Of a stretch of 33,614 nucleotides of DNA, positions 10,667 through 14,597 are shown in pieces. A program made the translations under genes and the position numbers. The stretch comes from Chloroflexota bacterium (GTDB lineage Bacteria; Chloroflexota; Limnocylindria; P2-11E). Under the pieces are notes generated by a model. That model did not search any database. It saw only the letters and a list, made by a program, of their open reading frames with translations, and was not told where the DNA came from. The stretch is from NCBI GenBank assembly GCA_005882765.1, contig VBDV01000034.1, forward strand, positions 1-33,614. The letters run 5' to 3'. The stretch's first letter is position 1. The number at the start of each line of letters is the position of its first letter.

Positions 10667-10953
10667 TCGTCTCTGGGCGCGCCCCAGGTGATGTTGAAGC
10701 CTTCGTAGTGCGGTTTCCCGCCGAGCTCGGTCCTGGACACCTCGGTCACATCCGCGCCCGGCGGACCGTCGTTCAACCAGCTCTGCAGCGCCGCGAGCGC
10801 GCCACCGCTTCCTTCCGCGACCAGTTCTACTGATCCGTCGTCGCTGTTCCACACGCGACCAGTGATCGCAAGGCGTAAGGCCTCGCGCACCGCGCTGGCG
10901 CGGAAGTTCACGCCCTGCACGGAGCCGCGAACGACGAACCGAGCGCGCGGCAT
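10663..10953 (-). CDS. acyP: Acylphosphatase
   Basis: MPRARFVVRGSVQGVNFRASAVREALRLAITGRVWNSDDGSVELVAEG: VxGxVQGVxFR and GxVxNxxDGSVE motifs. ATG overlaps the polX stop. Confidence 0.9.
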   Translation of the reverse strand: MPRARFVVRGSVQGVNFRASAVREALRLAITGRVWNSDDGSVELVAEGSGGALAALQSWLNDGPPGADVTEVSRTELGGKPHYEGFNITWGAPRDD

Positions 10954-12701
10954 CAGCGCTTCTTCCGTAACGCGAGCATCGCGTCGAGACCGCTCACGTT
11001 GGCGAGATTTCTTTGGGCCGCCCAACCGCGTCGCGCCGTCCCCACGGCGAGGTCCATCCAATCGAGCTCCTCGATCGCGTGCGCGTCCGAGTTCGTGACG
11101 AGCGTCGCGCCGCGCTCGACCGCCTTGCGAATCCACGTATCCGGAAGATCGAGGCGCTCGGGTCCGCCGTTCACTTCGATCCATGTCCCGGTCTCGACCG
11201 CCGCGTCTATCACCTTGTCGAGGTCGACCGCGTGCGGCTCGCGTTTCTCCAGAAGCCGGCCGGTGGGATGCGAGAGCGCCGTCACGAGCGGGTGACGCAT
11301 CGCGCCGACGACACGCGCGGTCATCTGATCGCGCGTCTGCGCGAATGAGGAATGCACGGAGGCGCTCACGATGTCGAACTTCGCGAGAAGCTGGTCCGGA
11401 TAGTCGAGCGCCCCGTTCGCGCGGATGTCGACCTCGGTGCCGACGATGATGCGGAACGGCGCGAGCTCCGCGTTCAGGCGCGCGGCCTCGGCGAGCCGCG
11501 CCTCGATCCGCTCGGGCGATAGGCCGTTGGTCATGCCGAGACCCGGCGAGTGGTCCGTCACCGCGATGTATGCGTAGCCCTTCGCGCGGGCCCGCCGCGC
11601 CATATCGGCGAGAGGATCACGGCCGTCGGTCCAGTTCGTGTGGGTGTGCAGGTCGCCACGGATTTGTGCGACCTCGACCAGCGTCGGAAGCGCATGCGCT
11701 CTGGCGGCGTCGACCTCACCGCGATCCTCGCGGAGCTCCGGCGGGATGAAGTCCATGTCGAGGGCGGCGTAGACCTCCTCCTCCGTGACCGACGCGATCT
11801 CCTGACCGCGCGCCTCCGCGCCCACGCGATAGAGGCCGTACTCGTTCAGAAGGAGCTTTCGGCGGAGGGCGAGCCCGCGCAGGCGCACGTTGTGCTCCTT
11901 CGAGCCCGTGAAGTAGAGGAGAGCAGCGCCGAACGAACGCGCGGGAATGACACGCAGATCGATCTGCAGCCCTCGGTCAACGATGACCGAGCATTTCGTG
12001 TCGCCGCGCGCCAGCACACGCTCGACCCTGGGGCCGCGTGCGAAGACCTCGAAGATCGGTGCGGCGTCGTCGCCCGCGACGACGATGTCGACATCGCCGA
12101 TCGTCTCCTTGTAACGACGGAGGCTGCCCGCGATCGCGATCTGGACGACACCGGTCTCCGCGCGGAGGTAGTCGACCATCGTCGTGGCGGCCGCCCGAGC
12201 CTCGTGGAGCAGCGAGCGGCCAGTGCGTTGCTTCAGGGCCGCGATCGAGCGGAGAATGTTCTCCTCAGTCTTCGCCTGGATCTTCGGAAGCTGCTGAAGG
12301 CGGTGGTCTTTCGCGGCTTCCTCGAGCTCCTCGATCGTCGTGATCTTCAAGCCCTCGTAGATGGTCCGCGCGGTGGCCGGGCCTACACCCGGCACCCGCA
12401 ACAGCGTCAGAAGACCCGGCGGGACGGCGGCTTGAAGCTCGTCGTGACGCTTCGATCGGCCCGTGGCGACGATCTGCTCGATCGCTTCGCCCACCGACGA
12501 TCCGACTTTCGGGATCTCTTTGAGCCGGCGCTCCTGGACGAGCTTCGTCAGCGGCTCGCGCAGATCGCGGATCGAGCGCGCTGCGGCCCGATAGGTGACC
12601 GCGCGAAAGACGTTCTCGCCTTTGAGCTCGATCAGGTCGCCGATCTCGTCGAGGACCTTCGCGATGGCGTCGTTGCCGACGGCGAGGGCATCGAGGGGCA
12701 C
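10953..12701 (-). CDS. polX: PolX-type DNA polymerase X / PHP domain protein
   Basis: N-terminal HhH (LRVPGVGPATARTIYEGL), nucleotidyltransferase (AIAGSLRRYKETIGDVDIVV), C-terminal PHP (GDLHTHTNWTDGRDPLADMARRARAKGYAYIAVTDHSPGL). Confidence 0.93.
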   Translation of the reverse strand: MPLDALAVGNDAIAKVLDEIGDLIELKGENVFRAVTYRAAARSIRDLREPLTKLVQERRLKEIPKVGSSVGEAIEQIVATGRSKRHDELQAAVPPGLLTLLRVPGVGPATARTIYEGLKITTIEELEEAAKDHRLQQLPKIQAKTEENILRSIAALKQRTGRSLLHEARAAATTMVDYLRAETGVVQIAIAGSLRRYKETIGDVDIVVAGDDAAPIFEVFARGPRVERVLARGDTKCSVIVDRGLQIDLRVIPARSFGAALLYFTGSKEHNVRLRGLALRRKLLLNEYGLYRVGAEARGQEIASVTEEEVYAALDMDFIPPELREDRGEVDAARAHALPTLVEVAQIRGDLHTHTNWTDGRDPLADMARRARAKGYAYIAVTDHSPGLGMTNGLSPERIEARLAEAARLNAELAPFRIIVGTEVDIRANGALDYPDQLLAKFDIVSASVHSSFAQTRDQMTARVVGAMRHPLVTALSHPTGRLLEKREPHAVDLDKVIDAAVETGTWIEVNGGPERLDLPDTWIRKAVERGATLVTNSDAHAIEELDWMDLAVGTARRGWAAQRNLANVSGLDAMLALRKKR

Positions 12702-12727: not shown

Positions 12728-14044
12728 TCAGGACGCCGGGCGCGAGGCGGCGGGATCGCGCGCGAGCTCGAGGTACGCGAACGCGGACTCCAGATCGCCG
12801 CGCGCTCGAAGCTTTTGCGCGTACTCCGCGGCGAGCGTCGAAAGATCCGGATGGTCCTCGATCGAAGCAAGTATTTCGATCGCCTTGCGGTACGACTGGT
12901 CGGACGAGCCGAAGTCGCCACGCGCGTGAGCGGCTGCGGCGCCGACGCGCAGCGCGTCGGCCTGCTGGCGGTGGTCGCCAAGATCGGCAAGGCGGGCTCC
13001 GGCGCTCTCGGCAAGGCGAAGCGCATTCTCGGAATCGCCTTCCTCGAGCGTGATCCGCGCGCGCAGGACGTCGACGATCGCGCCCACACGGACATCGCCG
13101 GCGAGCGCGGCGCGCTCGCTGCAGCGATCGACCGTCTCGCGTGCGGCGTTCATGTCGCCGTGCTCGAACTGCACCGTCGCGAGCGACTGCATGACGGAGA
13201 GCTCCACCGTGGTGTCGGAGACGCGCTCGAGCAATCCGAGTGCGCGCTGGTAGTTGCCGATCGCACCGTCGAGCTCGCCCGCGTCGTAGAGCGCGACGGC
13301 GACACCCATGTAGCTCTGCGCGGCGAGGCGCAGCTCGCTGGATCGCGACGCCACGGCGAGCGCGAGCTCGTACGTGGCGAGGGCCTTCACCGTGCGGTGG
13401 AGCCGGCGGTAGACGGTGCCGAGATGGACGAGCGTCCTCGCGCGGAGACGCGGGTCGGTGATCTCGCGCTGCTCCATGACGTCGCGCGCGGCCTCGAGCG
13501 ATTCGGCGCCGGCCGCGAGCTGGCCGTGCTCCACGTACAGCACACCGCGGGCGTGGAGCAGCTCAGCGAGCTCGGTGGCGTCGCTGTTCGCATCGACAAG
13601 CGACATCGCCTCGGCCAGCCGTTCGAACGCCTGCTCTCTTTTCCCTTCGGCAGCATCGGCCGAGGCGAGGTAGCGGAGAAGGGTGGCGCGCTCGCCGGCC
13701 TGCGCCTGCAGGGCCAGCGCTGAGCTCGCCTCGCGGCGGACGGCCGCCCAATCGTGGCGTTCGATCGCGGCCTGTGCCGCCAGACGATGGAAAACGCGCC
13801 GCTTCGCACCCGCGAGCGACTCGTCGCCGATGAAGTAGTCGAGGCTTCGGCCGAGCCGGGAGGCGATGATCTGCAGGGAGCGGAGGGACGGACGGACGAG
13901 GCCCGCCTCCACCTGACTGATAAAGCCCTTGGTAAGCTCGTCGCCGGCAAGCTGCGCCTGGCTTAGCCCCAGGGCGTGTCGAGCGGCGCGGACCCGCTCG
14001 CCCAAGGTCACCGGCTTCTGAACTGCTTCAGGCAGACTCGCCAC
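12728..14044 (-). CDS. XRE-family HTH regulator with extended TPR array (RRNPPA-like architecture)
   Basis: From GTG at 14044 (GGGGAG 5 nt upstream): VASLPEAVQKPVTLGERVRAARHALGLSQAQLAGDELTKGFISQVEAGLVRPSLRSLQIIASRLGRSLDYFIGDE, then repeated TPR-like helices (ATYELALAVASRSSELRLAAQSYMGVAVALYDAGELDGAIGNYQRALGLLERV...). Confidence 0.9.
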   Translation of the reverse strand: MASLPEAVQKPVTLGERVRAARHALGLSQAQLAGDELTKGFISQVEAGLVRPSLRSLQIIASRLGRSLDYFIGDESLAGAKRRVFHRLAAQAAIERHDWAAVRREASSALALQAQAGERATLLRYLASADAAEGKREQAFERLAEAMSLVDANSDATELAELLHARGVLYVEHGQLAAGAESLEAARDVMEQREITDPRLRARTLVHLGTVYRRLHRTVKALATYELALAVASRSSELRLAAQSYMGVAVALYDAGELDGAIGNYQRALGLLERVSDTTVELSVMQSLATVQFEHGDMNAARETVDRCSERAALAGDVRVGAIVDVLRARITLEEGDSENALRLAESAGARLADLGDHRQQADALRVGAAAAHARGDFGSSDQSYRKAIEILASIEDHPDLSTLAAEYAQKLRARGDLESAFAYLELARDPAASRPAS

Positions 14045-14054
14045 CGACGCTCCC

Positions 14055-14138
14055 CTGTCTAGACCGAACTGACAGTACGCCCAGCGATCCGGATTCTCTA
14101 GACTGCTGGAACAATACTGGCCGCTGTCGGCGCGGACA
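14055..14138. promoter_or_regulatory. Divergent intergenic region with repeated dyads (candidate XRE operators)
   Basis: TCTAGAC at 14058-14064 and 14097-14103; CTGTC(14055-14059)...GACAG(14071-14075); TGTC(14125-14128)-N6-GACA(14135-14138). Confidence 0.35.
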
Positions 14139-14154
14139 ATGTGGGGAGAACGAG

Positions 14155-14373
14155 ATGAGACCGTTCCGCTCGCGTGTGCTGACAGCACTCGTCATGGCGA
14201 TCCTGAGTCTCGGGCTGCTCGGAACCGTCGCGTTTGCCGACGAGATCCCGACCCAAACCCTCGTCGTCGATCCCGCTCCGACCGTCATCGAGGTGCCCGC
14301 GACGGTCTTCCCCGAGGATCCCTGGGGACTTCCGACCCTGGGCTTCCCCGAGGATCCCTGGCCGGATCTCTAA
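14155..14373 (+). CDS. Small secreted peptide with signal peptide and duplicated FPEDPW motif (candidate pro-pheromone)
   Basis: MRPFRSRVLTALVMAILSLGLLGTVAFA|DEIPTQTLVVDPAPTVIEVPATVFPEDPWGLPTLGFPEDPWPDL; n/h/c regions with an AFA cleavage site; GGGGAGA RBS upstream. Confidence 0.75.
   Translation: MRPFRSRVLTALVMAILSLGLLGTVAFADEIPTQTLVVDPAPTVIEVPATVFPEDPWGLPTLGFPEDPWPDL
14307..14361 (+). repeat. 19-bp direct repeat CTTCCCCGAGGATCCCTGG, two copies, 36-bp period
   Basis: Copies at 14307-14325 and 14343-14361; each encodes FPEDPW. Confidence 0.95.
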
Positions 14374-14390: not shown

Positions 14391-14597
14391 GTGCCGGCGA
14401 CCTCGACAGCCCATCGGCAGAGACTCGAGATCGACGGCACGCCGTTCCTGTTCCAGCACGGCTATCGCTTCGGGAAGGTGACGTTCATCACGCGCCTTCC
14501 GCTCGGTAAGAACATGACGGTGTTCACCCCCGGCCACCTCTCCGCGCCGGAGGTCGAGACCGTTGTCCGCGGCGACAACCCTTGGATGCTGGAGTGA
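14391..14597 (+). CDS. Hypothetical protein (68 aa)
   Basis: From GTG 14391 (CATACT 7 nt upstream): VPATSTAHRQRLEIDGTPFLFQHGYRFGKVTFITRLPLGKNMTVFTPGHLSAPEVETVVRGDNPWMLE. Confidence 0.5.
   Translation: MPATSTAHRQRLEIDGTPFLFQHGYRFGKVTFITRLPLGKNMTVFTPGHLSAPEVETVVRGDNPWMLE

Follow-up and report, generated by a model that had tools for sequence, protein, structure and literature searches.

Does the divergent gene pair in this soil Chloroflexota DNA, which belongs to an analysed stretch of 33,614 nucleotides (the window), encode a secreted peptide signal and the intracellular receptor that reads it? The first gene lies on the minus strand at 12728..14044, starts with a GTG at 14044, has its stop codon ending at 12728 and encodes a protein of 438 aa. 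Pfam placed HTH_3 at residues 17-70 and TPR_12 over six stretches (E 7e-21), which together with the ORF coordinates confirmed the sequence-only reading of an XRE-type helix-turn-helix (HTH) protein with a TPR array, here treated as a candidate intracellular peptide receptor. The second gene runs head to head with it on the plus strand (14155..14373, ATG at 14155, stop ending at 14373), with 110 bp between the two start codons and a Shine-Dalgarno-like GGGGAG 5' of its ATG (14142..14147, plus strand). Its 72-aa product carries a predicted Sec signal peptide at residues 1-28 (MRPFRSRVLTALVMAILSLGLLGTVAFA, 14155..14238, plus strand), with predicted cleavage at an AxA site, MRPFRSRVLTALVMAILSLGLLGTVAFA|DEIP..., and two C-terminal FPEDPW repeats, read as FPEDPWGLP (14308..14325, plus strand) and FPEDPWPDL (14347..14364, plus strand). 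This small ORF, too, was as previously described, the signal peptide being called, like all others here, by a home-made Sec/SPase I rule and not by SignalP.

We consider it likely that the two genes form a peptide-signalling system that works like the RRNPPA systems, located in Chloroflexota and unreported in the papers searched; data on binding, expression or secretion are lacking. The pairing itself and the selection on the repeats are established, both by sequence comparison. The earlier proposal of an autocrine or quorum analogue in another lineage is well supported as far as a secreted peptide paired with a TPR receptor is concerned, while the word quorum remains an inference.

The upstream DNA was read at 25 regulator loci, that of the window plus those of orthologs sharing 52-95% identity with its protein (426-440 aa where full-length). 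A divergent short signal-peptide ORF was found at all 24 loci, the window included, where the contig reached far enough, so that the predicted recurrence of the small ORF beside orthologous regulators was borne out. These 24 pairs span two families, and the ortholog propeptides are 43-92 aa long. In a search of relatives, six further genomes from the genus also had the small ORF adjoining the regulator; all genomes of this genus are fragmented drafts (that of the window is a 2.75-Mb draft). Among the five closest genomes, pN/pS was 0.086 in the regulator, 0.45 in the signal-peptide region of the propeptide, 0.82 in the linker and only 0.019 in the FPEDPW repeats, with third-position-biased codon changes in the propeptide. 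By this difference between repeats and linker, selection guards the short repeats while the linker drifts, as would be expected of a pheromone precursor. The small ORF is a real gene, since it occupies the same place at 24/24 loci and its repeats have a pN/pS of 0.02; purifying selection on its codons, on which the earlier proposal had depended, is present and concentrated on the repeats.

A conserved PEDPW-like motif had also been anticipated. The literal motif held in the five closest genomes and is confined to them, drifting more widely to PEDPGFGG, FPSDPGEP, PVDPGYPQ, DPGDGGGF and others. Within one genus the peptide types were FPEDPWGLP/FPEDPWPDL, PEDPGFGG, FPDDPEQP, VDDG types and SPDDPEFD, and other genera had FPSDPGEP x2, PVDPGYPQ x2, DPGDGGGF x2, DPGDPGLPPD, VPYDPGLPG and IDPGFE. 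Repetition inside the precursor was found for FPEDPW (x2-3), PEDPGFGG, FPSDPGEP, PVDPGYPQ and DPGDGGGF (each x2). Such drift among orthologs fits the divergence expected of putative pherotypes.

AlphaFold2 modelled the regulator as a TPR superhelix with a mean pLDDT of 86, mostly above 90 in the TPR domain and low in the HTH part. In a Foldseek search with this model, LGN/Pins and consensus TPR proteins ranked first, and the top 50 included Rap pLS20, RapF, Rap phi3T, NprR and RapJ, with E values of about 1e-7 to 1e-6 for the Rap-type matches 6t3h, 3ulq, 8rst and 4gyo. A profile search of the PDB gave, among general TPR proteins, RapJ (4e-9), Rap pLS20 (1e-7) and a match of the A1 profile to PlcR (E 2e-6) spanning the HTH and the first repeats. 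Since RRNPPA receptors were equalled or surpassed as matches by O-GlcNAc transferase, LGN/Pins and designed TPR proteins, homology of the regulator to RRNPPA is not shown. Of the peptide-binding TPR domain suggested earlier, the fold was confidently predicted and Rap and NprR were among its matches, but LGN/Pins and consensus TPR proteins outranked them. The eukaryotic LGN/Pins domains, the best structural matches to the TPR superhelix, have no HTH and occur in an unrelated context; this likeness is one of TPR folds in general.

The published RRNPP signature consists of five criteria (PMC10075063), and the pair met each of them: a propeptide of 10-100 aa (72 aa), Sec secretion (by the home-made rule, at 24/24 orthologous loci), a receptor of 250-500 aa (438 aa), TPRs in the receptor (the TPR_12 match and the helical-repeat model) and direct neighbourhood (110 bp head to head here, and likewise at all 24 readable orthologous loci). 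The pair is therefore RRNPPA-like by anatomy, as judged from predicted features, and works like these systems in our reading; membership by descent is not claimed because TPR similarity is too general. The known range of RRNPPA (Bacillota with their plasmids and phages), which is not a defining feature, was not matched, the related genomes being Chloroflexi records. As in PlcR-PapR and NprR-NprX, an N-terminal XRE-type HTH precedes the TPRs, a small Sec-type propeptide gene adjoins the receptor gene and the active peptide is expected from the C-terminal part of the propeptide; unlike in these systems, the phylum and the peptide motifs are others, the gene order is divergent in most lineages, and nothing in the sequence other than HTH and TPR is shown to tie the regulator to one RRNPPA subfamily in particular. 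Internal repeats are a further shared trait, known in NprX, PlcR and AimR propeptides (PMC9765709), and repeats within the precursor from NprR, Rap, PlcR and AimR systems (PMC9765709, PMC11343458). Rap-Phr shares the TPR fold, the RapJ profile match and secreted Phr-like precursors that are sometimes repeated (PMC11343458), but Rap proteins, unlike the window regulator, have no DNA-binding HTH (PMC9765709). In Rgg-SHP and ComR-ComS, too, a short peptide gene adjoins that of a receptor built of an HTH and helical repeats, whereas SHP peptides exit via PptAB without a Sec signal peptide (PMC10075063) and a Sec-type one is predicted here.

Inferred from the sequence, the 72-aa precursor would leave the cell by the Sec route and be cleaved by signal peptidase I, after which extracellular proteases may trim the tail to short peptides of about 6-9 residues around the FPEDPW repeats, the exact ends being unknown. 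Re-uptake, probably via an oligopeptide ABC transporter, is inferred because the genome of the window encodes 11 OppA-type binding proteins. The peptide would then bind the TPR groove of the regulator and alter how the XRE domain acts on DNA, if only in the intergenic promoter region that both genes share. This last step is inferred from a conserved box, GACCGAACTGACAG, a candidate operator between the two genes (14062..14075, plus strand), which comparison of intergenic regions found at this position with at most one mismatch in 9/11 genomes of the genus. When the whole genome of the window was searched for the box at 0-1 mismatch, no site besides the local one was found, and this uniqueness suggests that the regulator may autoregulate via the shared promoter region, for which no binding data exist. 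Three genomes from a different genus (G026, G020, G016) have the box as a TGTCA-N6-TGACA inverted repeat. A TAGACT element recurs about 50-75 nt 5' of the propeptide start in the intergenic regions of orthologous loci.

The same motif search, at 0-1 mismatch in the window's genome, revealed no regulator target besides the shared promoter region. With its only box in the pair's own promoter region and no outside regulon visible, the system could be a self-sensing loop, in which the secreted peptide reports on secretion, proteolysis or uptake and carries nothing between cells. We regard this as rather unlikely, since the rapid change of peptides within a genus (FPEDPW, PEDPGFGG, FPDDPEQP and VDDG types) resembles intercellular pherotype divergence; this argument is not decisive, because both readings share the same parts.

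The RRNPPA-like reading also gains from other regulators, where the pairing recurs with different peptides and gene orders, both elsewhere in the class and in one family that does not belong to it. Paralogs of about 28% identity in the same family have a precursor either upstream on the same strand, with a Cys-pair tail (e.g. CDPHGGGGGFC), or immediately downstream, where two of the three precursors end in CC. XRE-TPR homologs from two more families of the class adjoin ORFs of about 35-60 aa, which leave no more than 6-10 residues past the predicted cleavage (VTGGGDFPR, ATGGADFPR, EGQPPFPR, DGGPTIFPR, DSAGGPFPK), and the family outside the class has ADTLPGPR, ADTLPGGH, ADIMPGWK, EVWPNPT and tandem IWPN precursors. 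Counted by eye, peptide-like ORFs were present at 24/24 loci of group A, 13/13 of C, 12/19 of f4, 16/22 of f3 and 15/16 of f19. Signal-peptide ORFs had a density of 0.78 per kb within 600 bp of the regulator and 0.086 per kb more than 1 kb away at the same loci, a ninefold local enrichment over background; the loci in this count are related, which makes a Poisson figure overstate the significance, but the pattern returns in several separate classes of peptide. Gene arrangement followed the receptor clades, with 21 changes against a shuffled mean of 42.0.

These comparisons, with the surroundings of the pair, bear on a second alternative, that the precursor serves as a small secreted or envelope protein, or as an antimicrobial peptide, and is no more than a regulatory target of the XRE-TPR protein, whose TPR domain would respond to something other than this peptide. 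Bacteria often have divergent regulator-target pairs, the Cys-pair peptides such as CDPHGGGGGFC could be small disulfide peptides, and some XRE-TPR paralogs lack a peptide gene. No convincing peptide was found by eye near the regulators of groups B and D (0/4 in group D) or beside the 45%-identity paralogs, and none was recognisable at about 7/19 f4 and 6/22 f3 loci. We nevertheless hold this alternative to be improbable: many mature parts of 6-10 residues are too short to fold as a protein, constraint falls only in the short repeats, the peptide class shifts with the receptor clade, and in the window no gene for modification, immunity or export was seen next to the pair. It is flanked by PolX (10953-12701, minus strand), by a conserved ORF of 68 aa whose family is unknown (VPATSTAHRQRLEIDGTPFLFQHGYRFGKVTFITRLPLGKNMTVFTPGHLSAPEVETVVRGDNPWMLE; ...VVRGDNPWMLE; 14391..14597, plus strand) and by a D-aminoacyl-tRNA deacylase. 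The 68-aa ORF has no Pfam or NCBIfam match and sits between the propeptide gene and the deacylase in most orthologous loci; it adjoins the pair without having been shown to be part of the system. A RiPP or bacteriocin cluster was rejected, as modification and immunity genes were not seen beside the pair.

A toxin-antitoxin pair, with a small membrane-active toxin and an XRE antitoxin, is very improbable. XRE antitoxins are common and the regulator weakly matches the HipB-coupled HTH model TIGR03070, far below its cut-off, but the hydrophobic stretch is of the cleavable signal-peptide type, has an AxA site and is followed by a conserved soluble tail, in which the strongest selection falls, and the antitoxin would have to be a 438-aa TPR protein. 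That the 72-aa frame arose by chance, as many spurious ORFs do in high-GC DNA, was rejected on conservation and selection and is scarcely conceivable, the frame being kept with its signal peptide at all 24 loci and its motif showing the low pN/pS and third-position-biased changes given above. As for origin, regulator homologs were found in no viral contigs or phage records, nor was a full-length plasmid homolog; since the plasmid matches extended over no more than the HTH or the TPR part, a mobile-element origin was rejected.

Intracellular-receptor peptide quorum sensing has been described from Bacillota with their plasmids and phages, and the surveys of such systems consulted here cover Bacillota, their plasmids and viruses (PMC10075063, PMC9765709, PMC12700828). 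Among the papers searched, none described it for Chloroflexota, and nothing relevant was found on Chloroflexi or Limnocylindria and quorum sensing. A broader proposal, on which we are evenly divided, is that the pairs belong to a phylum-spanning Chloroflexota pheromone system with its own receptor family, which arose or diversified apart from Bacillota RRNPPA, with minimal precursors of 26-40 aa, from which signal peptidase alone would free a signal of 6-10 residues, and several paralogous pherotypes per genome. If the RRNPPA-like reading of the pair is right, abundant and mostly uncultured soil bacteria have a language written in their genes; its words can be taken from the sequence and put to the test straight away with synthetic peptides, and the origin of such systems becomes a testable question outside Bacillota.

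Receptor residues also vary with peptide class. T-x-Y-R-R at 210-214 is invariant in 24/24 group A receptors, which go with acidic peptides (mean charge -2.5). In f3/f4 receptors, position 212 is mostly E/D and position 213 mostly S, and a C-terminal R/K/H is frequent in the peptides beside them. R203 is present in nearly all regulators. By canonical TPR numbering, R203, T210, R213 and R214 are inferred to lie on the ligand face of one repeat. The covariation fits cognate binding, for which there are no binding data, but could reflect shared ancestry alone.

A second XRE-TPR protein lies at 1-1130 of the window on the minus strand; it is about 29% identical and is cut by the window edge, at the end of the same contig. 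Four of its orthologs had no recognisable peptide gene nearby, and it is possibly a receptor without a signal of its own. Precursors of 26-28 aa, consisting of a signal peptide plus ADTLPGGH, ADIMPGWK or ADTLPGPR, were found at L140 (G268), L141 (G136) and L136 (G282), and at three further loci (L147, L148, L153), in the family outside the window's class, tandem IWPN-type precursors adjoin XRE-TPR regulators. The window's own genome contains a second candidate system (L072, G000:C166), in which a short precursor lies upstream of the regulator on the same strand and ends in CGTNSGGGGFC, a Cys-pair tail.
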